From assembly GCF_007859865.1 (NCBI RefSeq), contig NZ_SJPI01000002.1:1694721-1758720 (forward strand): 64,000 bases of DNA, written 5' to 3'. Source of the stretch: Rubripirellula amarantea (GTDB lineage Bacteria; Planctomycetota; Planctomycetia; Pirellulales; Pirellulaceae). Of the stretch, positions 10,027 through 34,999 are shown piece after piece; the stretch's first letter is position 1, and the number at the start of each line of letters is the position of its first letter. A program made the position numbers and the translations under genes. The notes beneath the pieces are model-generated. The model saw only the letters and a list, made by a program, of their open reading frames with translations, was not told the origin of the DNA and ran no database searches.

Positions 10027-10359
10027 CTACGATGCCATCGACGAGCAGCTTTCGTGGCATTTACGGCAGCACTTGACACACTTGTCCATGTTGCCGACTT
10101 TCTCGCAACTGTCCGCGCATGCTTTGCAGATTTCTGCGCAGGCTTTGCAGTAGTGGGCGTGGTGATCGCTGTTGCGGCTCATGAAGTCGACGCAGGCTGC
10201 ACAGGCGGCGATGCAGTCGAGCATCAGCTTGACGTGATCTTGGCCGACGTGGTCGCCGCCTTCGGATAGACAGTGGCTGGTAAGCATGTCAGCGCAGGTC
10301 GTTTGGCATTCTTGGCAGTTTTCAATGCACTCTTTCATGGATGCGGTTGCAGTACTCAT
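10027..10359 (-). CDS. csp: Four-helix-bundle copper-storage protein (Csp3-like, DUF326)
   Basis: 110 residues with 18 cysteines in helix-facing CxxxC and CxxC spacing (ECIENCQECQTTC, LDCIAACAACV, CKACAEICKACADSC, CVKCCRKCHESC). This is the signature of the Csp/DUF326 four-helix bundle, whose Cys-lined core binds many Cu(I) ions. There is no signal peptide, so the protein should act in the cytosol as a copper reservoir (Csp3 type). The start at 10359 has a strong AAAGGAG site six bases upstream. It is transcribed divergently from copA with a CsoR-type operator between them, so copper-dependent induction is likely. Confidence 0.92.
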   Translation of the reverse strand: MSTATASMKECIENCQECQTTCADMLTSHCLSEGGDHVGQDHVKLMLDCIAACAACVDFMSRNSDHHAHYCKACAEICKACADSCEKVGNMDKCVKCCRKCHESCSSMAS

Positions 10360-10476: not shown

Positions 10477-12924
10477 ATGGACCACGCCAACAAACACGAG
10501 ACTTCATTGCCGGTCGCCGATCCGTCAGTGCAAATCGATCCGGTTTGCGGCATGAAGGTGCCTGCAGACAGTCCCCGTTCGGCGGATTTCGAGGGCAAAC
10601 ACTATGTTTTTTGTAGCGATGGTTGCCTGAAAAAGTTTCAAGATTATCCGGCGGGCGTGCTGGCGAAGCGATCGCAAAAGGAGGCATCGAGCGGTTCGTC
10701 TTTTTGCGGTGGAGAAACGGCGATTCAGATCAGAGAACCCCCGACCGCGTCTTCGTGCTGCGGTGGTCACTCATCGACCAAGGCGAGCGATTCTCCCGCA
10801 GACCCCGAGGCGATCTACACCTGTCCAATGCATCCGGAGATCGAGCAGGTTGGGCCGGGCGATTGCCCGATTTGTGGGATGGACTTGGAGCCGAAGTTCG
10901 TCGCATTGGATGACGAGGGTGAAGATAAACAGTACGCCGACATGAAACTTCGCTTTTGGGTGGGCGTTGCGTTGTCGGTGCCATTGCTCGTGATCGCGAT
11001 GGGGCCGATGGTGGGTTTGCGGGTCGCGGATTGGATGAGTCAAAACGTCTTTGGCTGGTTGCAGTTGGCTCTTGCGACGCCGGTTGTGTTCTGGTGTGGA
11101 TGGCCCTTGTTGGTTCGCGGAGCCAAGTCGTTTCGCACGATGAACTTGAACATGTTCTCGTTGATCGCGGTGGGAACGTTAGCGGCCTATCTGTTCAGCT
11201 TGGTCGTCGTGTTGCTTCCCGGTGTGATCCCAGAGGCGTTCTTCGAGAACGGTGTTCCACCTCTGTACTTTGAAGCGGCAGCAGTGATCATCACGTTGGT
11301 GTTGCTTGGGCAAGTGTTGGAATTGCGAGCACGCCAGCAGACGGGCGGAGCGATTCGCGAACTCATGAAGCTTGCTCCCGATACGGCTCACCGAATCACT
11401 GACGATGGCGAGGAAAATGTCTCGCTCGATGCAGTACACAAGGGCGATCGGCTGCGAGTTCGTCCTGGTGAGAAAGTTCCGGTCGATGGGAAAGTTATTA
11501 GCGGGTCAAGCAGCGTTGACGAGTCGATGTTGACGGGCGAGCCGATGCCGGTGAAGAAGGTGGAAGGTGACGAAATCACGGGCGGGACATTGAACCAGAC
11601 CGGTGCGTTGGTGATGGAAGCCGTCGGTGTTGGCGGCGACACGGTTCTGAACCGCATCGTGCAAATGGTTGCCGACGCTCAGCGAAGTCGCGCTCCGATT
11701 CAGAAACTGGTCGACGTGGTGGCTCGATACTTTGTGCCGGCGGTGATCGTTTGTTCGATTGCGGCGTTCATCGGATGGGCGGTGTTTGGTCCGGAACCGC
11801 AACTGGCTCATGCGTTCGTAGCGGCCGTTGCGGTCTTGATCATCGCTTGCCCGTGTGCGTTAGGGTTGGCAACACCCATGTCGGTGATGGTGGGTGTTGG
11901 CCGCGGTGCAAAGGAAGGCGTGCTGATCAAGAACGCAGAAGTCCTTGAGGTCATGGAGAAGGTCGACACGATCGTCGTCGACAAGACTGGCACACTGACC
12001 CAGGGACGACCGGAAGTGACGGGCGTCGAGACATTTGGTGACTGGAATGAGAACGATGTGTTGACGTTGGCTGCGGCGGTCGAAGCGCAGAGCGAGCACC
12101 CGTTGGCTCAGGCGGTCGTTCGCCGAGCGAAGGCGGATGAGTTGCAGCTTGTGGAGGCAAAAGAATTTGACAGTATCACTGGTGGTGGCGTTCGCGCTCG
12201 CGTCGATGATCATGATGTCTTGATCGGCAAAGCTGACTTGTTGGACGAACAAGGCATCGAGGGCGTCGATGCAGGGCGAGACAAAGCGGGATCGCATCAG
12301 GCCGAGGGTGCGACGGTTGTATTCGTGGCGATCGACAGGAAGTTGGCGGCCATTCTCGCGATCACTGACCCAATCAAGGAGAGCACTCCAGCAGCGCTAA
12401 AGACATTGCATGAACTGGGATTGAAAGTCGTGATGTTGACCGGTGATGCCGAACCGACTGCCAAAGCCGTCGCATCGAAACTGGGGATCGACGAGTTTCA
12501 TGCAGGCGTTTCTCCCGAGGAAAAGCATGACTTCGTTCGTAAGTTGAAGAAGGAAGGCAAGACGGTTGCGATGTGTGGCGATGGGATCAACGACGCTCCG
12601 GCACTCGCCGAAGCGAACGTTGGCATCGCCATGGGCACCGGGACAGGCGTTGCGATTGAGTCGGCGGGTGTCACGCTCGTCGGCGGCGATCTGCGTGGTG
12701 TCGCTGCTGCGGCGAACTTGAGTCGCAAAACGATGAGCAACATTCGTCAGAATCTGTTCTTCGCTTTCATTTACAACGCACTGGGAATCCCGGTCGCTGC
12801 TGGGTTGCTGTATCCGATCTTCGGCATATTGCTCAGCCCTATGATTGCAGCGGCAGCGATGAGTTTTAGCAGTGTGTCGGTGATTGCGAATGCGTTGAGA
12901 TTGCGGGCAGCCAAGCTCACATAG
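10477..12924 (+). CDS. copA: Cu(I)-exporting P1B-1-type ATPase with YHS and heavy-metal-binding domains
   Basis: 815 residues. The N-terminus holds a YHS domain ([10 protein letters not shown] to [13 protein letters not shown], about residues 20-65), a Cys-rich linker (SSCCGGHSS) and a heavy-metal-binding motif ([20 protein letters not shown], about residues 113-135) instead of the usual CxxC ferredoxin-like domains. The ATPase core is complete: TGEPMPV, membrane motif [11 protein letters not shown] near residue 455, DKTGTLTQG near 500, and [12 protein letters not shown] in TM7 and MSFSSVSV in TM8 assign Cu(I) specificity (P1B-1). It pumps Cu+ from the cytosol to the periplasm. The ATG has a GGAG site seven bases upstream, and the operator before it points to CsoR control. 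Confidence 0.93.
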
Positions 12925-13037: not shown

Positions 13038-13093
13038 CTTGCCGATCTGAAACAAGCCGACATGCCGCTGCTCAGATCAAAGGAGTGATTTCA

Positions 13094-14617
13094 GTGCGAT
13101 CGTTTTTGTTTAAGTCCGGACTGTTAGTCATTGCGACTGCCGGAATGTTTTGTTCCACCGCCACTGCCCAAATGCCTTCGATGGGCAGCACGGCTTCGCC
13201 GATCGGTCGCACATATACACCACCACCGCCAGTGCCATCGGCACCGTACGGACTTGATCAACTCGATCCGACCGGGCCACTGTTCCCCGGTGTTCGTATC
13301 GACGGCAGCGACTTCGGTAGCACGCCAGCTCCCGTTTACGTCGACGGCGAAATGATCTCGGAAGCGTTCCCCATGGAAACAGTGGTCCAAGGGTACCAGC
13401 TAGATGATTTCCTGACGTTGGCGGCTCAGAACAATCCCACGATCCGTCAAGCTCAACTGCAGATTTCAGCACAGACCGCCAAGGCATTGCAGGCCGGTCT
13501 ATATCCCAACCCGACCCTGAACTACATCGGCGAACAGATCGGAGTTGATGTCGAAGGCGACAAGGATTCGCCGGGCGAGTTTCAAGGCATGACGGTGAGT
13601 CAGCGTTTTGTAACCGCCGGCAAGTTGAAACTGAGTCGTGAGAAATACATGCGTCGCGCTCACATTTCCGAGCACCTCGCGATGGCTCAACAGTTCCGCG
13701 TGTGCAATGACGTTCGCATCCATTTCTTCCGAGCGCTAGCAGCTCGCGAAATCGTCGAACTGCGAAAGGAATTGTTGAAGACAGCCGAGGACGGAGCCGT
13801 CACTGCTCGCGAGCTTTACAACCAAGGCCAAGCAACACGGCCACAAGTTCGCAAGTCAAGCATTGCACTGCAACGAGCGAGGCTAGACGTGCTGACGGCC
13901 GAGAACCATTACCGCGAATCTTTCCGGCGGTTGGTGGCGATCGTTGGTGTCGATCTGACTGACGGTATTGTTTCGGGCGACTTGATGCCGCAAGGTGATC
14001 CGCTTTCCTATCAAGAAGCGATGTCGTTGGTGTTGACGGAAAGTCCAGAACTTGCCGCCGCCCGAGCGAAACTGGCAGCGGACCGTGTCACCGTCCGACG
14101 CGAACAAGTTGAGTGGGTGCCGGACATCGTTGCCGAAGGCGGAGCCGGATACAACTTTGAGGCCAAGGAAACAACCGCTGCGGCAGGCGTGTCGATCGAG
14201 TTACCCGTGTTCGATCGCAATCAGGGAACGATTCGCCAAGCTCAACTGGATTACCGGCGTCAACAAGAAGAGATTCGCCGTACCGAGTTGATGCTCGGGC
14301 AGCAGATGGCGAACGTCTATCAGCAATATCTGACGGCACTGCAAATCGCAACGGAATACGATCGGGTGATCATTCCCGAAGCCGAATTGGCATACCAAGA
14401 ATTGCTCGAAAGCTACAAAGCCAACCGAGTTGATTGGCCGACGGTTCTGGACGCACAGATGGATTACTTCGACTCACGCCTGACACGTGTGCAACAACTC
14501 GAACAAGTTCGCACCAACGAAGTGCTCGTGCGAGGATACCTACTGCACGGCGGATTGATGGCAGCACCCGGCCCGACGCCGCCGGGTCACATCGACGCGG
14601 TTGCCAAACCTCGTTAG
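13094..14617 (+). CDS. TolC-family outer-membrane efflux protein (copper cluster)
   Basis: About 507 residues. The GTG at 13094 is chosen because AAAGGAG (13079-13085) stands eight bases upstream; the earlier in-frame GTG at 13085 overlaps that site. A signal peptide follows (MRSFLFKSGLLVIATAGMF then CSTATAQ). The body has the two TolC/OEP repeats: FLTLAAQNNPTIRQAQLQI with ANPTL-like YPNPTLNYIGEQIG, and SYQEAMSLVLTESPELAAA followed by ELPVFDRNQGTIRQAQ. It forms trimeric channels through the outer membrane for RND or other pumps. No RND pump is adjacent, so it may serve the distant Cus set or act with the multicopper oxidase. Confidence 0.88.
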   Translation: MRSFLFKSGLLVIATAGMFCSTATAQMPSMGSTASPIGRTYTPPPPVPSAPYGLDQLDPTGPLFPGVRIDGSDFGSTPAPVYVDGEMISEAFPMETVVQGYQLDDFLTLAAQNNPTIRQAQLQISAQTAKALQAGLYPNPTLNYIGEQIGVDVEGDKDSPGEFQGMTVSQRFVTAGKLKLSREKYMRRAHISEHLAMAQQFRVCNDVRIHFFRALAAREIVELRKELLKTAEDGAVTARELYNQGQATRPQVRKSSIALQRARLDVLTAENHYRESFRRLVAIVGVDLTDGIVSGDLMPQGDPLSYQEAMSLVLTESPELAAARAKLAADRVTVRREQVEWVPDIVAEGGAGYNFEAKETTAAAGVSIELPVFDRNQGTIRQAQLDYRRQQEEIRRTELMLGQQMANVYQQYLTALQIATEYDRVIIPEAELAYQELLESYKANRVDWPTVLDAQMDYFDSRLTRVQQLEQVRTNEVLVRGYLLHGGLMAAPGPTPPGHIDAVAKPR

Positions 14618-14671: not shown

Positions 14672-16186
14672 ATGACCAGTCCAGAAGATCGCCGGAAGTT
14701 TCTCAAAGCAGGCTCCATCGCCGCGGCCACCGGTTTCGTCGGAAACTTGCTTGGCCGAAATGCGTCAGCTCAACAGCCCATGAACCATCAGGAAATGAAT
14801 CACGGTTCGGCGATGCCCGCTCCAATCGGCAACGCATCGGCTGAACCAAACATCCCGGACTCATCGAACGTGCAAACCGAGTACGACGGTTTCTCGCGGT
14901 TCAAGCCCAGTCGCGGGCTTGATCCAGACTCGGACTATTACATCGGCAAGCTGGTTCCAGGGTTTCGCAACGCCGAGGATGGCCCGGCACCGTTCGAGGC
15001 TCCCGACATTCCGAAGCTGCCTTACAAAATTGATGGCGGCGTGAAGGTGTTTGAACTTGTGCCGATGGCGGTTCAGCAAGAGTTTCATCCTGGCGTGAAA
15101 ATGAACGTCTACGGCTACAACGGCAGCATGCCTGGCCCGACGATCGAAGTCACGCAAGGCGATCGTGTTCGCATCATCGTGACCAATGAATTGCCGGAAG
15201 ATACGTTCGTGCATTGGCACGGTTTTGAGCTGCCCGTTCAGTATGACGGAGCCGCGACGCTGACACAGAACCCCATCAAGCCTGGAAAGACGAAAGTATT
15301 TGAGTTCGACATCCATGAAGAAGGCACGTTCTTCTATCACTCGCATGTTGCGATGCAAGAAGCGTTTGGACAAGTCGGATGGTTTATCGTCCATCCCAAG
15401 AAAGTCTTCGACCCACCAGTGGATCGCGATTTCGGATTGCTGTTTCAGAACTTTCATATTCCGCCGACGCACACGATCAGCGATTCGTGGTCGATGGACT
15501 GGAATTGGCACACGATCAACGGCAAGAGTGGCCCCTACACGACTCCGCTGGTATGCAAACATGGCGAGCGCGTTCGTGTGCGACTGTTGAACTTTGCCCC
15601 AATGCAACACCATCCGATTCACCTGCATGGGCACACGTTTTGGGTGACCGGTCACGAAGGGGCTCGCATACCCAAGAGTGCCTGGGTTCCACGCAACAAC
15701 GAATTGGTCGGTGTCGCTCAGGCTTCAAGCTTCGAGTTCATCGCCAACAACCCCGGCGATTGGATTTTCCATTGTCACATGATTCATCACATGATGAACC
15801 ATATGGTCAAACAAGTGGGACCGCGAATGCGCGATGACGCTTCGGTCGATCAGTACCTCGCGAATCTCAGTAGCCGTCCGCAGGTCGACGCTTCACGAAG
15901 CGACAAATTCGCGACGCCTGGCTACCCACAGAAGATGCAGGGCATGGAGATGTCCGAGGAATTTATGAAAGCGATTTGGAGTCGAAAAGAAGTCCGCGGA
16001 ATGCGAGCGAATTACGCGATGTCGGTCAAGGGATTGATGACCGTGCTGCGAGTTCTGCCAGACGACCTGTATGAGTTGGTAATGAACAGCGACCGGCCAG
16101 TTGAAAAAGGTGCGGTATTTGCTGAAATCGTTCGTCGTTTCGGTGACCCTGGTAAATACGAAGCTGCGCCCAAGATGATGATGTGA
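14672..16186 (+). CDS. Tat-exported multicopper oxidase
   Basis: 504 residues. The N-terminus is Tat-like (RRKFLKAGSIAAATGFVG), followed by a Met/His stretch (QQPMNHQEMNHGSAM). All four copper-ligand motifs of multicopper oxidases are present: HWHGFELP, FYHSHVAMQEA, HHPIHLHGHTF and HCHMIHHMMNHM, the last with the type-1 Cys and an axial Met. Such enzymes oxidise Cu(I) to the less toxic Cu(II) in the periplasm. The gene follows the TolC gene by 54 bp and precedes csoR by 77 bp, so it is probably in one transcript with them. The C-terminal 100 residues (after the fourth copper motif) are an unassigned helical tail. Confidence 0.92.
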   Translation: MTSPEDRRKFLKAGSIAAATGFVGNLLGRNASAQQPMNHQEMNHGSAMPAPIGNASAEPNIPDSSNVQTEYDGFSRFKPSRGLDPDSDYYIGKLVPGFRNAEDGPAPFEAPDIPKLPYKIDGGVKVFELVPMAVQQEFHPGVKMNVYGYNGSMPGPTIEVTQGDRVRIIVTNELPEDTFVHWHGFELPVQYDGAATLTQNPIKPGKTKVFEFDIHEEGTFFYHSHVAMQEAFGQVGWFIVHPKKVFDPPVDRDFGLLFQNFHIPPTHTISDSWSMDWNWHTINGKSGPYTTPLVCKHGERVRVRLLNFAPMQHHPIHLHGHTFWVTGHEGARIPKSAWVPRNNELVGVAQASSFEFIANNPGDWIFHCHMIHHMMNHMVKQVGPRMRDDASVDQYLANLSSRPQVDASRSDKFATPGYPQKMQGMEMSEEFMKAIWSRKEVRGMRANYAMSVKGLMTVLRVLPDDLYELVMNSDRPVEKGAVFAEIVRRFGDPGKYEAAPKMMM

Positions 16187-16263: not shown

Positions 16264-16542
16264 ATGCTCTCAGACGACGAGAAAAAGAAGCTCAACAACC
16301 GACTTCGACGTGTCATCGGACAAGTCGAAGCGGTTGGTCGTATGATCGAGGATGAGGAATACTGCGTCGATATCTTGATGCAATTGTCCGCCGCGACGGG
16401 AGCACTCAACAAAGTCGGCCAAATTGTCTTGGAGCAGCACATCCGCACCTGCGTCAGCGAGGCGATCAAGAGCGGCAGTGCCAAAGACCGTGACGAGAAG
16501 ATCGAAGAGCTGATGACGGTCTTTCGGAAGTACGGCGAGTGA
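16264..16542 (+). CDS. csoR: CsoR-family copper-sensing repressor
   Basis: 92 residues, all-helical CsoR/FrmR (DUF156) fold: RLRRVIGQVEAVGRMIEDEE. The copper ligands of CsoR are in place: Cys34 (EYCVDIL), His59 and Cys63 (EQHIRTC), with the same 25- and 4-residue spacing as the mycobacterial CsoR trio. In the absence of Cu(I) it should bind operators; copper releases it. Four ATACC-N7-GGTA dyads in this window are the likely targets. No such dyad precedes csoR itself, only a CGCGGAG/CTCCGCG inverted repeat at 16198-16235, so it is probably expressed from the tolC promoter with the multicopper oxidase. Confidence 0.93.
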   Translation: MLSDDEKKKLNNRLRRVIGQVEAVGRMIEDEEYCVDILMQLSAATGALNKVGQIVLEQHIRTCVSEAIKSGSAKDRDEKIEELMTVFRKYGE

Positions 16543-16554
16543 AAAATTAGCGTG

Positions 16555-17586
16555 ATGAATTGGTTCTTGACTACTGGCGGGTTTCTGATGACCTGCCTTG
16601 GCGTCTGGGAAACCTTCATGGCAGTTCTGCATCCTCGTGCAACGGTTGGCCCAATCACGAAAGGCATCAATCGTGGCTTTCACTTTTTAGTCCGAACGCG
16701 AATGTTCGCTCATCCGCGAGTTTTGGTTTACTGCGGACCGGCGTTGATCGTGACGCAAGTGTTGTGTTGGGCGACGTTGCTGTTGATTGGCATCAGCCTG
16801 GTCGTGTGGCCTCAACTCGGCACGGGCATTACGGCTACCGGATCGACACCGACGGATACTGGTTTTGCGAGCGCGGTGTACTACGCTGGCTTCACGATCA
16901 CCACATTGGGTGTGGGCGACTTGGTGCCGCGAACGCCAGCGATGCAGTTCTTGACAATCACTGCTGCTGGCTTGGGGTTCAGCTTCTTTACGCTCGTTCT
17001 CGCCTATGTCATTTCGGTCTATTCAACCCTGGCCCGTCGCAACCAGTTTGCCAACGAAATTGAGTATCGCACCGGACGAACGGGCGACAGCCTTGGCTAT
17101 TTGCGAGCGTATCTGACCGAGAGCGATCCTTCGTTGGTCAACCAAGACCTATACACGATGTCGTCGAACATGGCGGACTTGTTGGAGTCGCATCATTTCT
17201 ATCCGGTCCTGCATTACTTTCGATTCAGCGAACCGCGGTATGCGATGAGCCGAATGCTGCGATTCTGTTTGGAGGTTTCTTCAATGATGCGAGCTGCGCG
17301 GCAGGTCGATACTGCCAAGCCCGCCGCCAGTGCCGAGGCTGTCGATCGGCTTTGGCACGCTAGCATGCAGATGCTGGAGGAGACCAAACGGCATTTCGTG
17401 ATCTGTCACTCGACGCATGACGTTCCCGACCCACGGTTGGCGATCGAGATTTCGCGGTCAATCGGCGACTCTGACGACTTATTGGACAAGCTAAAAGCCG
17501 CCTTTGTCGATCAGCAATCCGAGTGGCTTCACGACCTGAACGCGCTTGCCGTTTGCACCAGAAGCGAACCCCTAAAAGAATCCTGA
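16555..17586 (+). CDS. Two-TM/pore potassium-channel-like protein
   Basis: 343 residues, start ATG at 16555 preceded directly by a GTG that could also serve. Three hydrophobic segments frame a pore loop, YYAGFTITTLGVGDLVPRTP, with TLGVGD in place of the K+ channel TVGYGD filter. A long cytosolic C-terminal domain (about residues 160-343) has no recognised RCK motif. This matches the bacterial two-pore-type ion-channel family. It starts 12 bp after csoR, so it is likely part of the copper operon. A role in restoring membrane potential under metal stress is a guess. Confidence 0.75.
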   Translation: MNWFLTTGGFLMTCLGVWETFMAVLHPRATVGPITKGINRGFHFLVRTRMFAHPRVLVYCGPALIVTQVLCWATLLLIGISLVVWPQLGTGITATGSTPTDTGFASAVYYAGFTITTLGVGDLVPRTPAMQFLTITAAGLGFSFFTLVLAYVISVYSTLARRNQFANEIEYRTGRTGDSLGYLRAYLTESDPSLVNQDLYTMSSNMADLLESHHFYPVLHYFRFSEPRYAMSRMLRFCLEVSSMMRAARQVDTAKPAASAEAVDRLWHASMQMLEETKRHFVICHSTHDVPDPRLAIEISRSIGDSDDLLDKLKAAFVDQQSEWLHDLNALAVCTRSEPLKES

Positions 17587-17694: not shown

Positions 17695-18075
17695 ATGAAC
17701 CGTCGTCACACCAACCCTGCCACTCGATTGTTTGCTGCTTTTGCAGTAATCGCGGTGCTGTTGGCGTCCTCGCCGGCCGCTCGGGCAGGATCACACGACG
17801 CGAAGCCTTGCCCTCATGCGTGCTGCCAATCGCAGCCGGTCGGGCACAGTTGCTGTGACGGCGAAACGTCGAACGAATGCCCTGCGATGGCTTCGTGTGA
17901 GACCAAAGTCTGGTTGCCGCCGCGAACTTCTGGCGACGATCCGTCGCCTCGCGGCTTGGAACGCAGCGACTTCTTGCGGATCAGTTGGAAGACCGAATCG
18001 GTCGCCTTTGGTCGACCGGATTCTTTTGTCCGTCCCAACTCTCTGATTGATTGGCACGTTCGTCTTCAGATTTAG
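17695..18075 (+). CDS. Small exported Cys-rich protein
   Basis: 126 residues from the ATG at 17695; an in-frame TTG at 17680 is less likely. The signal peptide is clear (FAAFAVIAVLLASSPAARAG). The mature N-terminus has a dense Cys/His cluster (CPHACCQSQPVGHSCCD and NECPAMASC), followed by a neutral tail ending WHVRLQI. The layout, signal peptide then Cys cluster then a short Trp/Arg tail, is shared with the exported proteins at 34312-34866 and 51692-52234, each of which heads a metal-efflux set. No known family is recognised. A periplasmic metal-binding role is inferred. Confidence 0.6.
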   Translation: MNRRHTNPATRLFAAFAVIAVLLASSPAARAGSHDAKPCPHACCQSQPVGHSCCDGETSNECPAMASCETKVWLPPRTSGDDPSPRGLERSDFLRISWKTESVAFGRPDSFVRPNSLIDWHVRLQI

Positions 18076-18191
18076 CGGTTGGCTCTGCTTCGACCTGCGA
18101 AGCCAGACCCAATTCAAAAAACGAAGATGTTTCTGTTTCCCAATCGGTGCATGTCGATGTCGGCTGCGCCATCAATCCTGGAGTTTCCAAA

Positions 18192-18602
18192 ATGTTAGCG
18201 ACTGTATTCTCTGCTGTTCTGTTCGCCGTTTCCTTCGTCCCCGCTGGCAATGTTGACACTGCCGCCTCGGCTGGGCCGACGTGTTGTGCGAAGCACGCAT
18301 ACTGCTGCACCGTCCAAGCGGCGTGCTGCGGCAAGCAAGCTGAAACGACAGCAACCACTGACGAAGTGGCGAACGCGACTTCCCAACCCACGTGCTGTGC
18401 CAAGCGTGCCTATTGCTGCTCGGTGAACGCACGATGCTGTGCGAAGCACGCTGGAACGAACACTGCAACCAGCGACGTCGTCAGCGCGGCCGGTCAACCG
18501 ACCTGTTGTGCAAAGCGAGCGTACTGCTGCAGCGTTGGTGCTGCCTGCTGCGGAAATGGATCGGCAAATGCAACAGAAGTCGAGCCTGCTGAACTCAGCT
18601 AA
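18192..18602 (+). CDS. Exported metallothionein-like protein with three CC-x5-CC-x5-CC repeats
   Basis: 136 residues from the ATG at 18192, which directly opens a signal peptide (MLATVFSAVLFAVSFVPAG). The in-frame upstream extension lacks such a feature. The mature protein is three units of 37, 37 and about 34 residues (residues 29, 66 and 103), each with the pattern PTCCAK(H/R)AYCC(T/S)V-x-A-x-CC, 18 Cys in all. Linkers are Thr/Ala/Asp rich. Paired cysteines at fixed spacing outside the cytosol suggest Cu(I) or Zn binding. I do not recognise a described family. It follows the other Cys-rich gene by 116 bp and ends just before a strong terminator. Confidence 0.75.
   Translation: MLATVFSAVLFAVSFVPAGNVDTAASAGPTCCAKHAYCCTVQAACCGKQAETTATTDEVANATSQPTCCAKRAYCCSVNARCCAKHAGTNTATSDVVSAAGQPTCCAKRAYCCSVGAACCGNGSANATEVEPAELS
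18276..18554 (+). repeat. 111-bp tandem coding repeat (2.5 units)
   Basis: Units start at 18276, 18387 and 18498, period 111 bp (37 codons). The Cys core is conserved at protein level; the linkers diverge in sequence but not in length, so the duplication is not very recent. Confidence 0.8.
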
Positions 18603-18631: not shown

Positions 18632-18670
18632 AGCCGGGCGAGCCTGAACACTCGCCCGGCTTCTCTGTTT
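18632..18670 (+). terminator. Intrinsic terminator
   Basis: AGCCGGGCGAG (18632-18642), an eight-base loop, then the perfect complement CTCGCCCGGCT (18651-18661), followed by TCTCTGTTT. It closes the copper transcript after the Cys-repeat gene. Confidence 0.85.
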
Positions 18671-18681
18671 AAGGTGCCATC

Positions 18682-20130
18682 ATGGACACATTCAAACACC
18701 GATGGCATCAGTTGCCGATTAGCCGGCAACTGCTTGTCCTCGTCAATGCGATTCTCTTTGGGTTTGTCGTTCTGTTTCTTGTCGTTGACTACCGCGTGAG
18801 GATGGATCGGCATTTGAACGAGAAGCAGATCGCGTTGACCGAAGAAGCTAAAACTATGTACGAGTCGCTACTGGTCGCTGAACCCCACGGCGGCGAGGCG
18901 ATTCAAAATCTGGTCGACAACGTCTGCGCTCGAATGAATACCGACGATTCGCCGGGTCACCATATTGCTGCGGATTGGCGTGGGCTTCCGTACCAGGCCG
19001 TCTCACACGGGCATGCTTCCGACGAAATGCTCCTGGCAATGCGGTCGGCAGCTGATTCAACCGTCGCCAGATCAAACGCCACCGGCGCGCTCGTTGTCGG
19101 GTCTTTCACTGGACCAGCGGGCACTGTTTACATATCCGAGAAACGTTCAGCAGTTGTGGGCGCAACACGCCGCTCGTTGTTGATCCAGATGTTCGGAGTC
19201 CTATTGCTGGGAGGGATTACCGCCTTCGTGGTCAGCGCGGTATTGCGGCAATTGATCGCCCAACCGATCCAAGGCTTTGTTTCGGCGCTGCGGAGTGTTG
19301 CCGCCGGAGACCTAAGCGTGATTGCACGTACTCGAAGCTGTCGAGAACTGAGTTATCTCGCCGATCAAATCAATTCGATGACCGAGGCACTGGACCACGC
19401 TCAGCGCGACCATCGCGTTCACATGGAAAAGGCACGCCAGATTCAACAGAACTTACGACCGACGGTGAATGGATTGGTTGGAATCGACGTCGCTGAACTG
19501 TTCGAGCCGGCCGACGATGTTGGCGGTGACTACTACGATGTGATTCCATTGTCCGATGGGCAATATCTACTCTGTGTCGCGGATGTATCGGGACACGGCG
19601 TGCCAGCCGCGATGGCGGCGACGTTGTTGAAGGCGTTTGTGTCGGAAGCGGCAAAGAAGTCATCCAGCCCTGCCCAAATTCTGACAGATGTCAACGAACG
19701 CTACTGTGAGTACGTGATGATGGGACACTTTGCGACCATGACGCTACTGGTCGTTGACCCAAAAAGGCGACAACTGACCTACGCAAATGCAGGCCATGAA
19801 TTTCCGTTCTTGCAGATTGGACGCGAAGCACCGGTGCGATTGAATGTGGGCGACCTGATCTTGGGCGTGGAGGACGATACCCACTACAGCGAAGAAACAA
19901 TCCAGCTCGGCGATACGGCCCGTTTAGTCCTTGTTAGCGACGGAGTGACTGAAGCGTTTGATCCAAGTGATGAGCAATACGGCACCGAACGCATCGAACA
20001 ACTGATGAGCAACGTTCTGACCACGAACGCGCGCGAACTGATCCAAGAGTTCGAGGCATCGCTCGAAACATTTCGCGAAGGTCGCAAAGCGTTCGATGAC
20101 ACGACGCTCTTGGTCGCGCAACTAACGTAG
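18682..20130 (+). CDS. Membrane-bound SpoIIE-type PP2C phosphatase with HAMP domain
   Basis: 482 residues. TM1 is at about residues 18-40 (LLVLVNAILFGFVVLFLVV), an extracytoplasmic sensor region of about 125 residues follows, then TM2 (GVLLLGGITAFVVSAVL) and a HAMP linker (IAQPIQGFVSALRSVAAGDL). The C-terminal 230 residues are a PP2C/SpoIIE phosphatase: metal-binding DDVGGDYYDVI, CVADVSGHGVPAAMAATLL, NAGHEFPFL, VSDGVTEAFD and FDDTTLLV. Enzymes of this type dephosphorylate anti-anti-sigma (STAS) proteins in partner-switching pathways. No partner gene is adjacent. The gene starts 12 bp after the terminator at 18632-18670, so it needs a promoter inside or overlapping that region, or partial read-through. 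Confidence 0.88.
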   Translation: MDTFKHRWHQLPISRQLLVLVNAILFGFVVLFLVVDYRVRMDRHLNEKQIALTEEAKTMYESLLVAEPHGGEAIQNLVDNVCARMNTDDSPGHHIAADWRGLPYQAVSHGHASDEMLLAMRSAADSTVARSNATGALVVGSFTGPAGTVYISEKRSAVVGATRRSLLIQMFGVLLLGGITAFVVSAVLRQLIAQPIQGFVSALRSVAAGDLSVIARTRSCRELSYLADQINSMTEALDHAQRDHRVHMEKARQIQQNLRPTVNGLVGIDVAELFEPADDVGGDYYDVIPLSDGQYLLCVADVSGHGVPAAMAATLLKAFVSEAAKKSSSPAQILTDVNERYCEYVMMGHFATMTLLVVDPKRRQLTYANAGHEFPFLQIGREAPVRLNVGDLILGVEDDTHYSEETIQLGDTARLVLVSDGVTEAFDPSDEQYGTERIEQLMSNVLTTNARELIQEFEASLETFREGRKAFDDTTLLVAQLT

Positions 20131-26880: not shown

Positions 26881-28269
26881 TTAACGAATTGTTGGAGCTT
26901 CGACTCCTTGTGATTTCAGGACAGCTAACCACTTGTGCGGCTCGGCTGCGATCTTCTTCGCGCATCCAGGGCAACAGATGTAGATTGCTTTCCCGGCCGC
27001 GTTGACCTTGTACGGTCCCCCCATCGCATCGAGCGGTTCGTCCATCACGGGGCATTTATTCTGGGCAGCGATAAATGGAACATCGGCAGAAACTACTTTG
27101 AAAATGCCGTCGCGTACTTGCTCGGTTCCGGCGGGGACGGACGCTTGATCGCCGTTCCCATAAACCATGGCGAGGTACTTCGCTGGTTCAGCTTGAATCT
27201 TCTTGATGCAGCCTTTGCAGCAAAGATAGATCGGTTTGTCGCCAACCATCACCTTGATCGGTGTGCCCATGCCACCGAGAGGCTCATCCATCACTGGGCA
27301 AACCTTTTGAGCCGCAATGGCCGCTGCGTCGGCTTGCGTTGATGTTGAGACAGTAATCTTTGCCGCCGTCGTGACAGCGGGCTGGCCACTGTTTTGCGGA
27401 CCGTTGCCATAAACCATGGCGAGGTACTTCGCTGGTTCAGCTTGAATCTTTTTGATGCAACCTTTGCAGCACAGATAAATCGGCTTGTCACCAACCATCA
27501 CCTTGATCGGTGTGCCCATGCCACCGAGAGGCTCATCCATCACGGGACAGACCTTTTGGGCGGCAATCGCGGCAGCGTCGGCTTGTGTCGCTGTGGTGAC
27601 CGTTATTTGCGGGCGACCGGCAGCATATTTAGCCGGGTCTGACTTGACCGCGTTCACACAGCCGGCACAACAAACGTAGAGTTTCTGTCCGTTCACATCG
27701 ACTGCCACGGGATCGCCCATACTGCCGAGCGGCTTTCCGCTGACGGGACATATCTTTTGACGGCCAATTGCGGCGGCGGCCAGTTGTTGCTCGCTGGCGG
27801 GAACCGTTGCGACCTCGTTGAAACTGACGACATTTCCGCCCGAAGCCGTCATGCCGACCAACTGAATATCGACGTCGATTTGCCGACCAGCAAGCTGCGA
27901 AAGATTCACTGGAGCCGTTAGCGCTCCTTTGCCGTCGGGAAGCAAGTCGTAGCGATAGCGTTTCGCGTTGCCTTCAACGCGCACTGAGACAGCACCGCGT
28001 CCCTGGTCGACCGAGACTGGCTGGCCCGTGCGATCGTAGACGAACATTTGCAGCCCGCCTTGGGAAACAATTGTTTCGATTTTCAGGTTGCCGGTTTGTT
28101 TCAGACTGCCGCCATGCGGCCCCACTTGAGTTGCTTCTCGAGCCTGGGTCATGCCGGGCATCGCGTGGTTGCGTCCAGCGTGGTCGTGCTGCGATTGAAT
28201 CGTTTGCCCAAACACAGACGATGTGAACATCGCGAGCGAGAAAGCAGTGATAATGAGTGTTCGTTTCAT
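26881..28269 (-). CDS. Exported protein with four TRASH/YHS-like metal-binding repeats
   Basis: 462 residues with a signal peptide (MKRTLIITAFSLAMFTSSVFG) and a His/Met-rich start (HDHAGRNHAMPGM). The first about 130 mature residues form a PHGG domain (VGPHGGSLKQTG) also seen in the lipoprotein at 45357-45887. Four units follow, each with a CPV motif, then CC-x2-C: KICPVSGKPLG/YVCCAGC, twice KVCPVMDEPLGGMG/YLCCKGC, and NKCPVMDEPLDAMG/YICCPGC. Units two and three are identical over about 63 residues. Such CPx...CCxxC units are TRASH/YHS-type heavy-metal sites. The gene follows cusA by about 110 bp on the same strand, suggesting a periplasmic copper chaperone or buffer for that pump. Confidence 0.8.
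   Translation of the reverse strand: MKRTLIITAFSLAMFTSSVFGQTIQSQHDHAGRNHAMPGMTQAREATQVGPHGGSLKQTGNLKIETIVSQGGLQMFVYDRTGQPVSVDQGRGAVSVRVEGNAKRYRYDLLPDGKGALTAPVNLSQLAGRQIDVDIQLVGMTASGGNVVSFNEVATVPASEQQLAAAAIGRQKICPVSGKPLGSMGDPVAVDVNGQKLYVCCAGCVNAVKSDPAKYAAGRPQITVTTATQADAAAIAAQKVCPVMDEPLGGMGTPIKVMVGDKPIYLCCKGCIKKIQAEPAKYLAMVYGNGPQNSGQPAVTTAAKITVSTSTQADAAAIAAQKVCPVMDEPLGGMGTPIKVMVGDKPIYLCCKGCIKKIQAEPAKYLAMVYGNGDQASVPAGTEQVRDGIFKVVSADVPFIAAQNKCPVMDEPLDAMGGPYKVNAAGKAIYICCPGCAKKIAAEPHKWLAVLKSQGVEAPTIR
27155..27594 (-). repeat. 249-bp tandem coding duplication
   Basis: Two adjacent units (about 27155-27345 and 27404-27594, period 249 bp or 83 codons) encode the identical TRASH-like repeat. DNA differences between them are nearly all at third codon positions, so the protein sequence has been kept while the DNA drifted. 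Confidence 0.85.
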
Positions 28270-28382
28270 GGGAGAACTCCGTTGTGAAAGTTAGGACGCC
28301 ATCCGTTGGGTCCGTCGATCTTGGTGAGGTTGATTGATTGGATGCCCGAGTCGTGAATTCCTTCACGGGCAAATGAAGAAAT

Positions 28383-31300
28383 TTATGCCGCTTTCATGAG
28401 TTCCTCCTCCGGCATCGCTTCGGTTCCTTCCCAAAGCTCGTCTTGAAATCCAAATCGCATTTTCAATTCCAGATAGCCGCAATAGAGCGTCGGCACGATG
28501 AATGAAGTGAATGGTTCGGCTAGCATTCCTCCGAACACTGGAATCGCCATCGCTCGGGCAACGTCAGCCCCACGACCTGTCGCGATCAACACCGGAATCA
28601 ATGCGGCCAGCGTCGTCACCGTGGTCATCATGCAAGGCCGAATGCGTTTGAGTCCCGCTTCGTAAACCACGATGCGAATGTCTTCGACCGATTCGATCTT
28701 GCGTTTCTTGAGAAGTTGATGGATGTAGGTCGCCATCACGACGCCATCGTCGACCGCGAGACCGAACAACGCGATGAAACCAACCCAAACTGCCGTGTTG
28801 AGTTCCACGCCCATCGTTGCAACTGCGATCATGCCACCAGCGAAGGCGACTGGGATACCGGAGAACACGGCTAACGAAATCGAGAGATTTCGGAACTCCA
28901 TGTAAAGCAACATCAGATTGATGCAGATCACCATCGGAATGATCCACATCAAGCGTCGATTGGCTTCGATTTGATTACGGAAGCTGCCCACGGCTTCGAG
29001 GGAATAACCGGCTGGCAATGACAACCGATTCGGGTCGGACGAAGGCAGCGACTGTGCCACGCGAAGCTGTTCTTCGATCGCGGAGACCGATTCCAAATCG
29101 CCCTTGCTGCCATTGGTCATGAAAGAAACGTGTGCGACGAGTCGACCGTTTTCGCTGTTGATTGCACCTGGCCCCCAAGTCGTTTCCAGCGTTGCGAGTT
29201 CTTCTAATGGCACAACGGCCCCCGAGTGCGTGACGACGGGCAATCGTTTCAGACCGTCGATCTGTTCGCGGAGGTCGCGGTTGTACCGAAGCCGCACGGG
29301 ATAACGTTCTCTCCCCTCGACCGTTTTAATCAGGTTCATTCCGCCGAGGGCTGTTTCGATGACTTGGTTCACCATCGACGAACTCATCCCGTACCGCGAT
29401 GCCGCCTCACGATCGACGGTGAACTCGACGTAGGGTTTGCCAAGCACAATATCGGGATTGACGGTGCCGGCGTTGATCAGTGGCGACTTTTTCAATTCAG
29501 CCGAAACATTCATTGCCGCGTCAGCCAATTCGTCAAGCTGGTTGCCGTAAACTCGAATGGCCATCGGTGCCTTGATGCCAGACTGCAACATCACCACGCG
29601 GCCCTCGATCGGTTGTAGCGCCGAGGCGGGCGTGACACCTGGCAACGTAGCGACTCGGTTGATTTCGTCCCACACGTCGCGAGCAGTGACGCCTTCTCGC
29701 CACTCGTTTTCGGGTTTGAGCATCACGTAGGTTTCGACCATCGCTGCGGGCGCGGGATCGAGCGCCGATTCCACGCGGCCTATCTTGCCGAGCACATCTT
29801 TGACTTCGGGAATCTGGCCGATCAGCACGTCCTGGGTTTGTAAGACCTGCATCGCTTGCGAGAAGCTCGCCGCCGGGTACAGCGTCGGCATGTAGAACCA
29901 ACTTCCCTCGTCCAAGGCGATCCAGTCGTCACTTTGCAAACCCGTGAAGACGTGCTTGGCGTCGACGTAGCCGGGGAAATCATTCAGCTCGGCACCAAAT
30001 AGGTTCGCGAACTTCTCGATCGGACGCATCACTGTCGGCATTCCGATGTAGGCTCCTACACCGATGAACAGCAGCACTAGCGGAAACGAGAGTGCGAATG
30101 CTTTGTGATTGAGCGCATGTCGCAGTCGCGCCGCGTAAATCCAGCGAACGAAGCGGCTCGACGGAATTTCTTCGATGGGTCGAATTCGTTCTCGCATCAA
30201 CTGCCAACCGCCAATGAAGCCGATCATGGCTGCGACTGCGGTCACAATCCAAGTATCCAGGCCAAAGCGTTCTGCCAGTCGCGATCCCCAAAGGAAATGT
30301 GATACGGCACCTAGCAAACCGGAGAGCGACAACGCAGAAACCAACGCGGTTGATTTGCGACGTACATTGCTTCGCAGCATCAATCGACATAAAGCCGGCA
30401 CGATCGTGACGGCAGCGATCATTGCTGCAGCAATCGCAAATGTCTTGGTATAAGCCAGCGGCGAAAATAGCTTGTAATCGCGACCGGTCAAAAAGAAGAC
30501 CGGCAGAAAGCTGACGATGGTTGTCGCCACGGCAGTTACGACGGCTGGTGCGACTTCGACCGTTGCTTCGTAGACAACTTCCGCACGAGGTTGCTTGATT
30601 CTCGCCTCTGCGCTTCCTGATTCCCAATCAGAAAGGTGTTGGTAAATGTTCTCCGAAACGATGATTGCCATGTCGACCATCGTGCCGATCGCGATCGCGA
30701 TGCCGGCGAGCGACATGATGTTCGCACCGACGCCGACCACCCGCATCGCGATGAACGACATCAGTACGGCGGCAGGCAAACAAATTGCGACGACAAAACT
30801 GCTGCGAATGTGCAGTAAGAACAACAGGATGATGATCGCCGTGATGATGATCTCGTCACGTAACGCATGCGTCAGCGTCGCCATCGTCTCGTCAATCAGT
30901 CCGCTGCGATCATAGACGCCATGGATGGTTACGCCTTGCAGCGATGGTGTGATCGCGGCGATCTTCTCTTTCACGCGGTCAATGACGACTCGCGGATTTT
31001 CGCCATATCGCATCACGACCACGCCGCCGACCGCTTCGGCTCCGTTGTAGTCCAGCGCACCGCGCCGAAAGTCAGGACCAATCTGCACAGCGGCAATGTC
31101 ACGGACGCGAACGGGAACGCCGTCACGCTGCATGATGACGGTGTCCTCGATGTCCTCGACCGCCTTGTCCTTGTCACCACCCGAGCCGAGGAAGCCCGTA
31201 CTACGGACGATAAACTCCATGCCAGTCGTTTCGACGGTTTTCGCTCCGACGTCAACGTTCGATCCCTTGATCGCCATCGCCAATTTGTCCAGCGACACGT

Positions 31301-31898
31301 TATGGAATCGCAGCTTGTCGGGATCCACTTCGATCTGATACTGGCGAACGTAACCGCCGATCGAAGCAACCTCGCTAACGCCCTCGACGGCTTGCAACTC
31401 ATACTTCACGACGAAGTCTTGCATGCTGCGAAGTTCCGCTAGACCCATGCCTTCATCAGGTGGCTGCAATGTGTAGTAGTAGACCTGCCCTAGGCCCGTC
31501 GCGTCTGGCCCAAGTTGTGGCACAACGCCGTCGGGCAACTGAGACGCCGCACTGCCGAGTTGCTCGGAAACTCGGCTTCGTGCCCAATAGAAGTCGATCT
31601 CGTCTTTGAACGTGACCTGCACAAAGCTGTAACCGAACATGCTCTTGCCGCGCACCGATTCGGCACCCGGCACAGCCAGTAACGAAACGCTGAGCGGATA
31701 CGTCACTTGGTCTTCGATGTCCTTCGGCGAGCGACCCGGCCAAGGCGTCAACACGATGACTTGGTTCTCGCCAATGTTAGGAATCGCGTCGATCGGAATC
31801 GACTTGAAACTGATCCAGCCGGCAACGCTCAAGCCGATCGTCAGCAGTACGACCAGCCAAGGTTCTTTGACGCAAAAGCGAATGATTAGATTTAACAT
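28383..31898 (-). CDS. cusA: Cu/Ag-type heavy-metal RND efflux pump (CusA family)
   Basis: 1171 residues, longer than the usual about 1040 because of an extra segment with added hydrophobic helices near residues 505-590. It has the inner-membrane RND layout, two sets of TM helices with large periplasmic loops. HME-RND motifs include IAIGTMVDMAIIVSENIY in TM4. The three methionines that bind Cu(I)/Ag(I) in CusA are conserved in context: SWFYMPT, AAMVETYVML and RVVMLQSGIKAPM. This supports copper or silver export coupled to proton influx. It lies 11 bp after cusB, with AAGGAAA before the ATG, and forms a tripartite system with CusB and probably the TolC protein at 35000. Confidence 0.92.
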   Translation of the reverse strand: MLNLIIRFCVKEPWLVVLLTIGLSVAGWISFKSIPIDAIPNIGENQVIVLTPWPGRSPKDIEDQVTYPLSVSLLAVPGAESVRGKSMFGYSFVQVTFKDEIDFYWARSRVSEQLGSAASQLPDGVVPQLGPDATGLGQVYYYTLQPPDEGMGLAELRSMQDFVVKYELQAVEGVSEVASIGGYVRQYQIEVDPDKLRFHNVSLDKLAMAIKGSNVDVGAKTVETTGMEFIVRSTGFLGSGGDKDKAVEDIEDTVIMQRDGVPVRVRDIAAVQIGPDFRRGALDYNGAEAVGGVVVMRYGENPRVVIDRVKEKIAAITPSLQGVTIHGVYDRSGLIDETMATLTHALRDEIIITAIIILLFLLHIRSSFVVAICLPAAVLMSFIAMRVVGVGANIMSLAGIAIAIGTMVDMAIIVSENIYQHLSDWESGSAEARIKQPRAEVVYEATVEVAPAVVTAVATTIVSFLPVFFLTGRDYKLFSPLAYTKTFAIAAAMIAAVTIVPALCRLMLRSNVRRKSTALVSALSLSGLLGAVSHFLWGSRLAERFGLDTWIVTAVAAMIGFIGGWQLMRERIRPIEEIPSSRFVRWIYAARLRHALNHKAFALSFPLVLLFIGVGAYIGMPTVMRPIEKFANLFGAELNDFPGYVDAKHVFTGLQSDDWIALDEGSWFYMPTLYPAASFSQAMQVLQTQDVLIGQIPEVKDVLGKIGRVESALDPAPAAMVETYVMLKPENEWREGVTARDVWDEINRVATLPGVTPASALQPIEGRVVMLQSGIKAPMAIRVYGNQLDELADAAMNVSAELKKSPLINAGTVNPDIVLGKPYVEFTVDREAASRYGMSSSMVNQVIETALGGMNLIKTVEGRERYPVRLRYNRDLREQIDGLKRLPVVTHSGAVVPLEELATLETTWGPGAINSENGRLVAHVSFMTNGSKGDLESVSAIEEQLRVAQSLPSSDPNRLSLPAGYSLEAVGSFRNQIEANRRLMWIIPMVICINLMLLYMEFRNLSISLAVFSGIPVAFAGGMIAVATMGVELNTAVWVGFIALFGLAVDDGVVMATYIHQLLKKRKIESVEDIRIVVYEAGLKRIRPCMMTTVTTLAALIPVLIATGRGADVARAMAIPVFGGMLAEPFTSFIVPTLYCGYLELKMRFGFQDELWEGTEAMPEEELMKAA

Positions 31899-31909
31899 GG
31901 TTCGTTTCC

Positions 31910-34033
31910 TTACTGCACGGTGCGAGCGATCGAGGGAACTTCGCCAACCGGCATCGCCATGTCACGAACGACTTCGCCGCAGGTCAGCATCTCGCTACCC
32001 CAGTACGGGTTCTGCAAATCGCCGCCGGGCTGCATCCAGTCGCCACCTCCACCGGGAACCATCGGACAGTAGTAATGCGTTAGCTTCACGGCCGTCTTCG
32101 GGCCACGAGCAACCGTCGCCGCTTTCAACATCGCGTGACTGACGCCGCGGTAAGCTTCGCGAGCGGTTTCCAACGATCCATCCATGCGAGACGCCGCACG
32201 GCGGGCGATTGCGAACTTACGTTGGGCATCGTCGGGGACGCCGGCCGACATTTCCAGTTCGCGGAGTCCTTCTATTAGCGTGTTCAATGCGACGGGCGGA
32301 GGCGTTTGGTCGGCCGCCATCGCACATTGAATCTCGAAGTAGGCGTCGTAGGTGCGATCAAGCGCTTTGCCAGCGTCGGTCGCCAACATGACCGGAATGG
32401 AATTGGGAAGCTCAAGCGGTCCTGGCGAATAGCTCGGTGCCTTCGTCGGGTCCATCAATGAGGGGTTACCGGCAAGCTGCATCTGTGAGTCGATCAAGAA
32501 GTTGCCTCCAGTGGCGACCGTCTCGCCAGCCGAAAGCCCTTCGACGATCACGGCTTCTTTGCGATTCATCGGGCCAACCGTGACTCGGCGAATCTCAAAA
32601 CGTCCCGGTTCAGTTTCGACATAGATCACACTGTTCTCGCCGGCCAACAGCACGGCGTCGCGAGGAACGGTGACGACCTGCTGCATCGGCAACGGCTCCG
32701 CCGCGAATCCAAGCTGCGATGTCGGCACCAAATCCATATCGCAAAGCGGGCACTTGCCCGGCTGGTCGCGGATGACTTGCGGGTGCATCGGGCTGATGAA
32801 CTTGTTCGCAAGTGCCGGATCGTAAACTTGGTCCATGGGTATCGCGGGAACGGTGACGCGAGCGGTCGCGTAGTCGCCTGGTCGCAGCTTGCCGTCGAAG
32901 TTCATGATCTCGACACGGACGCGTACCGTTCGAGTCCTCGGGTTCACGGTGGGGTCAATGAAAGCGACGCGGCCCGTGAATACTTCGCCCGGCATCGACT
33001 GAATTTCCGCTTCAACTTGTTGGCCGAATCGAACCGCCGATGCGTCGTCGGGAAACAGGTCAAGCATCAACCAAACACTGCTCAGGTCGGCGACTCGATA
33101 GAGCTTGTGTCCTGTTTTGACATAGTCGCCTTCGACCGCCGACTTCTCGATTACCGTTCCACTCTGCGGTGACTTGATGCGGATTCGCGACATTGGTTTT
33201 CCGGACTGCCCCAGCTGGTCGATCTGACCCTGCGTCATGCCAAGCTCAGCCAAATTCTCGCGTGCCATCTTGTTCAGATCGCCGCCAGAGATTTGAAAGC
33301 GTCCGATTTTGCCGTCGCTGTTCATGCTCATGATGAACTCGGTTTGGGCGGTATAGAGCTGGGGGCTGTAGATCAACGCCAGATCGTCGCCTTCGTTAAC
33401 CTTCACGCCGGCGTAGTTGGCGTACATCTTTTCCAAACGGCCGTCGATGTACGCACTGATGGTCGACAGTTGGCTTTCATCGAAGTCGATCGAGCCGATG
33501 GTGCGGATGGTTCGATTGACTTCACCCATCGTGGACATGGCGGTTTGAATGCCAACGAGTCGACGGGCCGAGGCCTCAATCGTGACCGAGATACCGTCGC
33601 CGCCTCCGCCGCCGGTCGCTTCGACCAATTCCATCGCACAAACCGGGCAACGACCCGGTTCCGTTGATGGCGGCGTACACATCATCGGACAGATGTATCG
33701 CTTGTCTTCGCCACCGCCAGCTTCCGCCACGGCTTCGCCTTTGCTGCCCGAAAATCCGTCAGCGGTCAACCACTTCGTTCGCTGTGCGATACCGAGTAGG
33801 AAAAACACGAGGCCGGCGACGGTGACGATAGTTGCGGCTTGCACGCCTGTGCGCATGAGCCACTTCATTCCGCCACCACTTTGTGGAACGCTCGGTTGAG
33901 CTTCAACTGGCGGTATTGTTGCTTCCGTCGCAGTCTCGACTGGCTCGCTATCGGTCGGCGCATCCGCATCCACGTTGCTGACTTGGTCGTCAACGTCGGC
34001 TTCATCGGGCTTGATTGGTTCGTCCTGATTCAT
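31910..34033 (-). CDS. cusB: RND periplasmic adaptor (CusB-like) with two heavy-metal-binding domains and DUF3347-like tail
   Basis: About 707 residues from the ATG at 34033 (a GTG at 34060 is in frame). A Glu/Asp-rich cytosolic start leads to one TM helix (VQAATIVTVAGLVFFLLGI). The membrane-fusion core has the barrel-sandwich and beta-barrel parts (MSRIRIKSPQSGTVIEKSA, GEVFTGRVAFIDPTVNPRTR). Two Cys-x2-Cys heavy-metal-binding motifs are inserted: YICPMMCTPPSTEPGRCPVC at about residue 125 and ISPMHPQVIRDQPGKCPLC at about 425. The C-terminal about 150 residues resemble DUF3347 (HYYCPMVPGG to NPYWGSEMLTCGEV). It hands metal to CusA and links it to the outer-membrane channel. The doubled metal domains are unusual. 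Confidence 0.88.
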   Translation of the reverse strand: MNQDEPIKPDEADVDDQVSNVDADAPTDSEPVETATEATIPPVEAQPSVPQSGGGMKWLMRTGVQAATIVTVAGLVFFLLGIAQRTKWLTADGFSGSKGEAVAEAGGGEDKRYICPMMCTPPSTEPGRCPVCAMELVEATGGGGGDGISVTIEASARRLVGIQTAMSTMGEVNRTIRTIGSIDFDESQLSTISAYIDGRLEKMYANYAGVKVNEGDDLALIYSPQLYTAQTEFIMSMNSDGKIGRFQISGGDLNKMARENLAELGMTQGQIDQLGQSGKPMSRIRIKSPQSGTVIEKSAVEGDYVKTGHKLYRVADLSSVWLMLDLFPDDASAVRFGQQVEAEIQSMPGEVFTGRVAFIDPTVNPRTRTVRVRVEIMNFDGKLRPGDYATARVTVPAIPMDQVYDPALANKFISPMHPQVIRDQPGKCPLCDMDLVPTSQLGFAAEPLPMQQVVTVPRDAVLLAGENSVIYVETEPGRFEIRRVTVGPMNRKEAVIVEGLSAGETVATGGNFLIDSQMQLAGNPSLMDPTKAPSYSPGPLELPNSIPVMLATDAGKALDRTYDAYFEIQCAMAADQTPPPVALNTLIEGLRELEMSAGVPDDAQRKFAIARRAASRMDGSLETAREAYRGVSHAMLKAATVARGPKTAVKLTHYYCPMVPGGGGDWMQPGGDLQNPYWGSEMLTCGEVVRDMAMPVGEVPSIARTVQ

Positions 34034-34311
34034 GACAGTTCTCACAGCGTTTTCCGGCACGCGATTGTGGATCCATCCACGAACGTCAGCTCAAGAGTTG
34101 ACTGGCCGATGAAGCGACGGGGGGATCGTATCATCGACCAGTCATCGCCTCCAGGCTGTGACCGGTTCATTGTTTCGGGTGACGCGAATCAAATCGCGTA
34201 GGGATTGCATCTGGAAAGACTCCACTGGGAATGAGCGTGCAGCACCATTCACGTGAAAGCCAACTTGAAACCGAAGAGCTACGAGCGCGCAGCTCTCCTA
34301 TCGAGACGACG

Positions 34312-34866: not shown

Positions 34867-34884
34867 TGTGACCTTCCGAAAAGG

Positions 34885-34901: not shown

Positions 34902-34999
34902 ATGAACTGTATCGGAAATTTGGCCGAAGAGTTCAATAGGAATTAGCCGGTTAGGCAAACTTTGACAGATCAATTATAGCTCATTAGGACCTGAACGCC

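Follow-up and report, generated by a model that had tools for sequence, protein, structure and literature searches.

What is the role of the short cysteine-rich protein that is encoded among copper-handling genes of the planctomycete Rubripirellula amarantea? The window analysed here is a stretch of 64 kb of this genome, and the gene, the repeat units of its product (the CC protein) and the adjacent non-coding elements lie in it as follows.

18192..18602, plus strand: gene of the CC-unit protein, ATG to stop, 136 amino acids (open reading frame list and unit survey)
18276..18335, plus strand: unit 1, PTCCAKHAYCCTVQAACCGK (unit survey, profile A1)
18387..18446, plus strand: unit 2, PTCCAKRAYCCSVNARCCAK (unit survey, profile A1)
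18498..18557, plus strand: unit 3, PTCCAKRAYCCSVGAACCGN (unit survey, profile A1)
18076..18191, plus strand: intergenic leader; a stretch near 18085-18109 is invariant and can form a hairpin, and GGAG lies ahead of the ATG
18632..18661, plus strand: terminator-like hairpin with an 11-bp stem and a poor T tract (TCTCTGTTTA), fold z of -2.37

The CC protein is composed of a hydrophobic N-terminus (residues 1-27), three units (residues 29-48, 66-85 and 103-122), two linkers of 17 residues each and a tail of 14 residues. The preliminary description had proposed three CC-x5-CC-x5-CC units, and this was confirmed: the spacing is exact, the period is 37 and 37, and no Cys is present elsewhere in the protein. 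The Cys residues are located at positions 31, 32, 38, 39, 45 and 46, at 68, 69, 75, 76, 82 and 83, and at 105, 106, 112, 113, 119 and 120; all 18 are within residues 28-136, inside the units and in CC pairs. When the window was translated in all six frames, the motif was found three times, always in the CC protein, and unit profile A1 detected in the own genome (E up to 0.001) the three units of this protein and nothing more. When residues 28-136 were shuffled 200,000 times, at least one unit arose in 180 shuffles and at least two in 3.

The CC gene is a real gene, since its changes are biased to the third codon position and its pN/pS values follow the units. Changes at codon positions 1, 2 and 3 were 0.067, 0.037 and 0.160, respectively, in 17 loci (15 distinct). 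Among 15 distinct orthologs, a count that excludes L018 and L019 because a unit is broken or missing there, pN/pS was lowest at the Cys codons (0.01), followed by the remaining codons of the units (0.15), the first 27 codons (0.22) and the linkers (0.52). The sole non-Cys residue at any Cys codon of this set was one Arg, from Neorhodopirellula pilleata. One copy in Planctomycetes bacterium TBK1r (L042) has lost one Cys and sits amid fragments of the genes that surround the CC gene elsewhere. The frame is open upstream of the ATG; a longer start was rejected, the upstream frame being shifted in L016 and stopping closer to the ATG in L017. Because these upstream frames disagree and GGAG precedes it, the ATG at 18192 was kept as the start.

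The 150 bases upstream of this ATG are more conserved than the CC reading frame (mean minor share of 0.041 vs 0.088). Given this strong conservation, 18076-18191 may hold a leader peptide or an RNA element, but neither a convincing reading frame nor an Rfam match was found at that place. The transcript had been thought to end at a strong terminator. The 11-bp hairpin is indeed present, but its T tract is poor and the number of such sites is near expectation. Because four terminator-like sites were found in the scan vs 3.3 expected, the hairpin at 18632..18661 is a plausible terminator, short of a proven one.

The unit profile search that had been proposed as a check revealed an unnamed family, and no characterised non-metal family appeared above cut-off. 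The CC protein itself had no match above cut-off in Pfam, NCBIfam, PHROGs or PDB sequences, and no paper on the CC-unit family was among the matches listed from the open-licence PMC literature. The commonest form of the unit is PTCCAKRAYCCSV-x3-CCGK. It occurs 80 times across 30 loci, 47 of the occurrences being distinct, and among these 47 Lys is found at position 6 in 44 and Tyr at position 9 in 43. This prevalence of Lys and Tyr suggests that the unit may have a partner or a fold and may not be a plain thiol sponge. The period is exactly 37 residues in close relatives, 35-47 in distant ones and 21 in L025. Among the loci surveyed for the unit, three units are the commonest form; L019 has two, and L047, L048 and L049 have four. 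In single-unit proteins such as L053, L055-L060 and L032, the unit is at or near the C-terminus after a linker, and a minimal single-unit form of 57 amino acids is encoded in L062-L069 (four distinct proteins). A longer run of CC-x5 pairs was seen in L076.

The unit is carried by 46 of the 241 genomes of the Pirellulaceae, the family of the window, and by 2 of 392 genomes sampled evenly over the phylum, namely the own genome and one from another family. Among the 27 named loci are ones from Neorhodopirellula, Stieleria, Rhodopirellula, Rubripirellula, Aporhodopirellula, other Planctomycetes and MAGs; these loci overlap the 241-genome set, and the counts must therefore not be summed. Two of the names are non-planctomycete. 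The neighbours of the locus in the Anaerolineaceae MAG (L053) are of planctomycete type, and the locus may be misbinned. The other is a rumen Bacteroidales MAG, in which a protein at 10001-10204 of L054 has a C-terminal run of CC-x5 repeats; as a family member it was rejected, since the match is weak and it is a different protein with a CC-x5 run. A phage or plasmid origin of the CC gene was also rejected, no relative being found in viral contigs or PLSDB plasmids at the sensitivity of those searches.

According to the preliminary description, the units follow a signal peptide directly. The N-terminus does have a hydrophobic core (Kyte-Doolittle mean of 2.58 over the best 12 residues) and an ASA site at residues 25-27, but no Lys or Arg precedes the core. 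Because this N-terminus is a weak signal peptide, the case for export leans on relatives: in 11 of the 17 family N-termini examined there is a net charge of +1 to +4 ahead of the core, and in 6 it is absent. Judged from these sequences, export of the family outside the cytoplasm is likely, and that of the CC protein in the window is probable.

The CC gene lies in a copper island, whose other parts in the window are listed here.

10027..10359, minus strand: Csp-like Cys-rich protein (TIGR04401, E of 5.7e-5, 23 bits, below the cut-off of 100)
10477..12924, plus strand: Cu-translocating P-type ATPase (TIGR01511, 596 bits, cut-off 397)
13085..14617, plus strand: outer-membrane efflux protein (PF02321)
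14672..16186, plus strand: multicopper oxidase with a Tat signal (Pfam and NCBIfam searches)
16264..16542, plus strand: CsoR-type repressor (PF02583), with Cys34-His59-Cys63 counted on the sequence
16552..17586, plus strand: ion-channel-like protein (PF07885), missing from some islands
17695..18075, plus strand: small Cys-rich protein of 126 amino acids, with a signal-like N-terminus by eye
18682..20130, plus strand: SpoIIE-type phosphatase, the next gene after the CC gene (PF07228; HAMP-like stretch below cut-off)
26881..36712, mixed strands: RND part of the island (profile searches), made up of the next five genes
26881-28269, minus strand: Cys-rich protein
28383-31898, minus strand: CusA/CzcA (866 bits, cut-off 701)
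31910-34060, minus strand: CusB-type adaptor
34312-34896, minus strand: small Cys protein, without an NCBIfam match
35000-36712, plus strand: TolC-like protein (match below cut-off)

The Cys34-His59-Cys63 spacing of the CsoR-type protein is presumably that of a Cu site. The small Cys-rich protein upstream of the CC gene had no match in Pfam or NCBIfam; we take it to resemble CopL-type proteins. In the SpoIIE-type phosphatase a His-containing stretch (GHH, HGH) lies between two likely membrane spans, and this phosphatase may tie copper to a partner-switch signal.

The order Csp-like gene, Cu ATPase, (TolC, multicopper oxidase), CsoR, (ion channel), small Cys gene, CC gene, SpoIIE-type gene recurs, with gaps, in L035-L046. 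In these 12 named close loci, the small Cys gene adjoins the CC gene in 12 and the SpoIIE-type gene is present in 12. With fragments counted, CsoR is present in 11 (L039 is without it and L040 has a 40-aa piece) and the Cu ATPase in 10, none being found in the locus DNA examined for L039 and L042. We counted 27 genomes as multi-unit because a single frame holds at least two units; G083 was included although its further units are degenerate. Of these 27, 23 also have the small Cys gene (not G014, G078, G101 and G120), and its gap to the CC match is 102-120 bp in the 20 pairs measured. CsoR (E up to 1e-30) occurs somewhere in 21 of these 23 genomes; in G106 it is on a different contig, and in G155 the distance is about 23 kb. 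In 2 of the 29 genomes with the small Cys gene there is no unit at all (G091 and, weakly, G175), and four further ones have only a single-unit CC gene elsewhere (G112 weakly, G166, G178 and G179). G091, G166 and G178 have CsoR and the small Cys gene but no CC gene next to them. Since the small Cys gene thus also occurs without an adjoining CC gene, the island often, but not always, includes the CC gene. In raw counts over the 241 genomes, without correction for relatedness, 28 have both the CC gene and CsoR, 18 the CC gene only, 16 CsoR only and 179 neither. The CC gene had been assigned to a CsoR/CopA transcript, a claim that stands as far as strand and gene order are concerned. Production of the CC protein is probably controlled jointly with the CsoR genes and the Cys-rich upstream neighbour. 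Copies farther off keep similar company: L073, a more distant three-unit copy, is near an adaptor gene and a CusA/CzcA gene (1244 bits), and the four-unit copy L049 has CsoR, CusA/CzcA (718.8 bits, cut-off 701) and a heavy-metal ATPase nearby.

Six hand-picked loci (L035, L037, L044, L074, L078 and L079) were compared with the window as far as each reaches, matches over 300 bases being listed. Parts of 10-20.1 kb and 25.8-34.9 kb matched in all six at about 78-98% DNA identity, and no such match was found for 20.4-25.6 kb. G103, a genome of another genus, encodes a CC protein with 99% identity to that of the window. This identity and the patchy matching suggest that the island may have been transferred horizontally. 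A minus-strand gene at 20409-25610 (1733 aa) inside the island is unmatched in the six relatives and has an 82% identical copy in L043. No tRNA was found in the 64-kb window.

What, then, does the CC protein do? It had been proposed to be a metallothionein-like protein of the periplasm. The part of this claim with the best support is extracytoplasmic handling of copper, because constraint is strongest at the Cys residues and copper genes surround the CC gene, but no metallothionein family was matched. We consider it slightly better than an even bet that the CC protein is an extracytoplasmic, thiol-based buffer that holds Cu(I) as Cu(I)-thiolate. Its hydrophobic N-terminus would carry it across the inner membrane, where it would take up Cu(I) pumped into the periplasm by the P-type ATPase. 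Six thiols suit a Cu4S6-type cluster. Each six-Cys unit could wrap about one such polynuclear cluster of Cu(I) and thiolates, with flexible linkers between the units; from the number of ligands, a molecule would hold about 12 Cu(I). Free thiols outside the cytoplasm are prone to oxidation, and the bound metal would protect those of the CC protein while Cu(I) is held. The held Cu(I) would later be handled by the CusA/CusB-type pump or the multicopper oxidase.

Bacterial metallothioneins such as SmtA, PmtA and MymT are small and Cys-rich, as is the CC protein. The latter differs from them in its modular CC-x5-CC-x5-CC build, mostly with Lys and Tyr, after a signal-like N-terminus. A passage in PMC10141476 describes MymT as regulated by RicR, a CsoR homolog, and PmtA is reported in part of PMC11237414 to have no signal peptide and yet to be observed on the cell surface. 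Exported thiol-based storage of Cu(I) is an established kind in Csp1, a four-helix bundle with a Tat signal according to an excerpt of PMC7558416. A Csp-like gene shares the island with the CC gene, whereas the CC protein itself is a string of short units. The metallothionein profiles of Pfam and NCBIfam did not match the CC protein at E up to 1, nor did any NCBIfam profile, including the Csp profile TIGR04401 (four-helix bundle). Because both kinds of profile were run and neither matched, we file the protein as neither metallothionein nor Csp1; the best reading is that it would work like one of them without belonging to either family. No paper in the open-licence PMC literature was found for "periplasmic metallothionein".

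The CC pairs might instead be structural disulfides, in a granulin-like ladder or in cross-links of the planctomycete cell wall, which is rich in protein; the copper neighbours would then reflect envelope stress. Granulins have CC pairs at similar gaps, and the Pfam Granulin profile (PF00396) matches residues 101-123 of the CC protein at E 0.07. Repeated CC pairs are common to both, but granulin has further Cys spacings and the match of 13.8 bits is below the cut-off of 20.9. YTV-domain cell-wall proteins, described for Rhodopirellula in a portion of PMC8567305, likewise are cysteine-rich, lineage-restricted and of the envelope, but Pfam listed no YTV-type domain for the CC protein at E up to 1. 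The repeated company with CsoR, the Cu ATPase and CusA/B also argues against disulfides, and this reading seems improbable to us.

Single-unit relatives raise another question. In all eight loci L062-L069 (four distinct proteins), the 57-aa gene has a small Cys protein before it and an ECF sigma gene directly after it. Next in an operon-like array, in 7 of 8, come a zf-HC2 anti-sigma gene, a protein of 154 aa whose TRASH-like stretches score below cut-off, one of 301 aa and a CusB/CzcB-type adaptor, L064 ending before the zf-HC2 gene (lengths and families as in L068). A divergent CopZ-like protein and a P-type ATPase accompany 6 of the 8 (in L062, where these were checked, CopZ-like with 79 bits, cut-off 85, and Cu ATPase with 573 bits, cut-off 397). 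Sigma genes are also near L048, L060 and L061/L070. It is conceivable, therefore, that the unit is an extracytoplasmic metal or redox sensor or ligand whose partners are SpoIIE-type phosphatases and pairs of ECF sigma and anti-sigma factors; the multi-unit form would be an amplified version. The SpoIIE-type gene after the CC gene in 12 of 12 loci fits this, as does one with 33% identity to it in L057 and L058, at a distance of about 6 kb from the CC gene. On the other hand, no sigma or anti-sigma factor is among the seven window proteins checked (13085-20130, including the CC protein), a sensor would not need as many as 18 Cys in three units, and a gene beside a sigma factor may be merely its target. 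We regard a sensor role as improbable.

The other single-unit genes (L032, L053 and L055-L060) are near BON and glycogen-phosphorylase genes (families checked on L058), and several of their loci also have V-ATPase (checked on L056), zf-HC2 or heavy-metal-type ATPase genes. Single-unit relatives in such regulatory and energy-metabolism clusters are not explained by a simple sponge. MerTP/CopZ-like genes lie near L051 (three units) and L059 (one unit), so copper is not the sole candidate metal. Mercury handling is hinted at by two fusions near the three-unit gene, at L051:7073-9638, one of them MerR-MerB-like and the other CopZ-MerTP-like. Among the neighbours checked, no heavy-metal gene was found for L050/L052 (TPR, FG-GAP and LeuA-type genes, checked on L050), for L061/L070, which is one locus (Mn-type superoxide dismutase, sigma and zf-HC2 genes), or for the four-unit L047, whose ATPase is of the calcium type; none was seen by eye in L053, L056 and L075, which have V-ATPase or glycogen genes. 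In view of the Mer-type neighbours and these loci, the data do not support copper as the only metal of all members, and related members may serve other soft metals. A bolder and unlikely proposal takes CC-x-K-x-A-Y-CC-x5-CC as a new lineage-restricted extracytoplasmic metal-thiolate unit, whose heptad spacing could stack six thiols on one helix face. Strung in three or four units it would be a periplasmic copper store beside CopA- or CusA-type pumps, and as a single unit it would report a soft metal to the neighbouring ECF sigma/anti-sigma pair.

That the unit is a chaperone, handing Cu(I) to the multicopper oxidase, CusB or other proteins, is very unlikely, for although multicopper oxidase and CusA/CusB-type genes share the island and single-unit copies exist, L038, L041, L043 and L045 keep the CC gene while neither multicopper oxidase nor TolC was found in the locus DNA examined, and three to four units point to capacity over delivery. 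AlphaFold2 gave no usable fold of the CC protein (mean pLDDT 38.1; 52.6 in a second job, also low confidence), and with such confidence the models cannot choose between buffer, disulfide, sensor and chaperone.

If the CC protein is a Cu(I) buffer as proposed, its family would gain a name, Pfam and NCBIfam having no model that matches the member in the window above cut-off, and its 20-residue unit would be a minimal module for biochemical study. Beside the Csp1 type outlined in the excerpt of PMC7558416, a second thiol-based copper store outside the cytoplasm, modular and unrelated to the first, would then be known from Planctomycetes. This would be another way of using thiols in an oxidising compartment.
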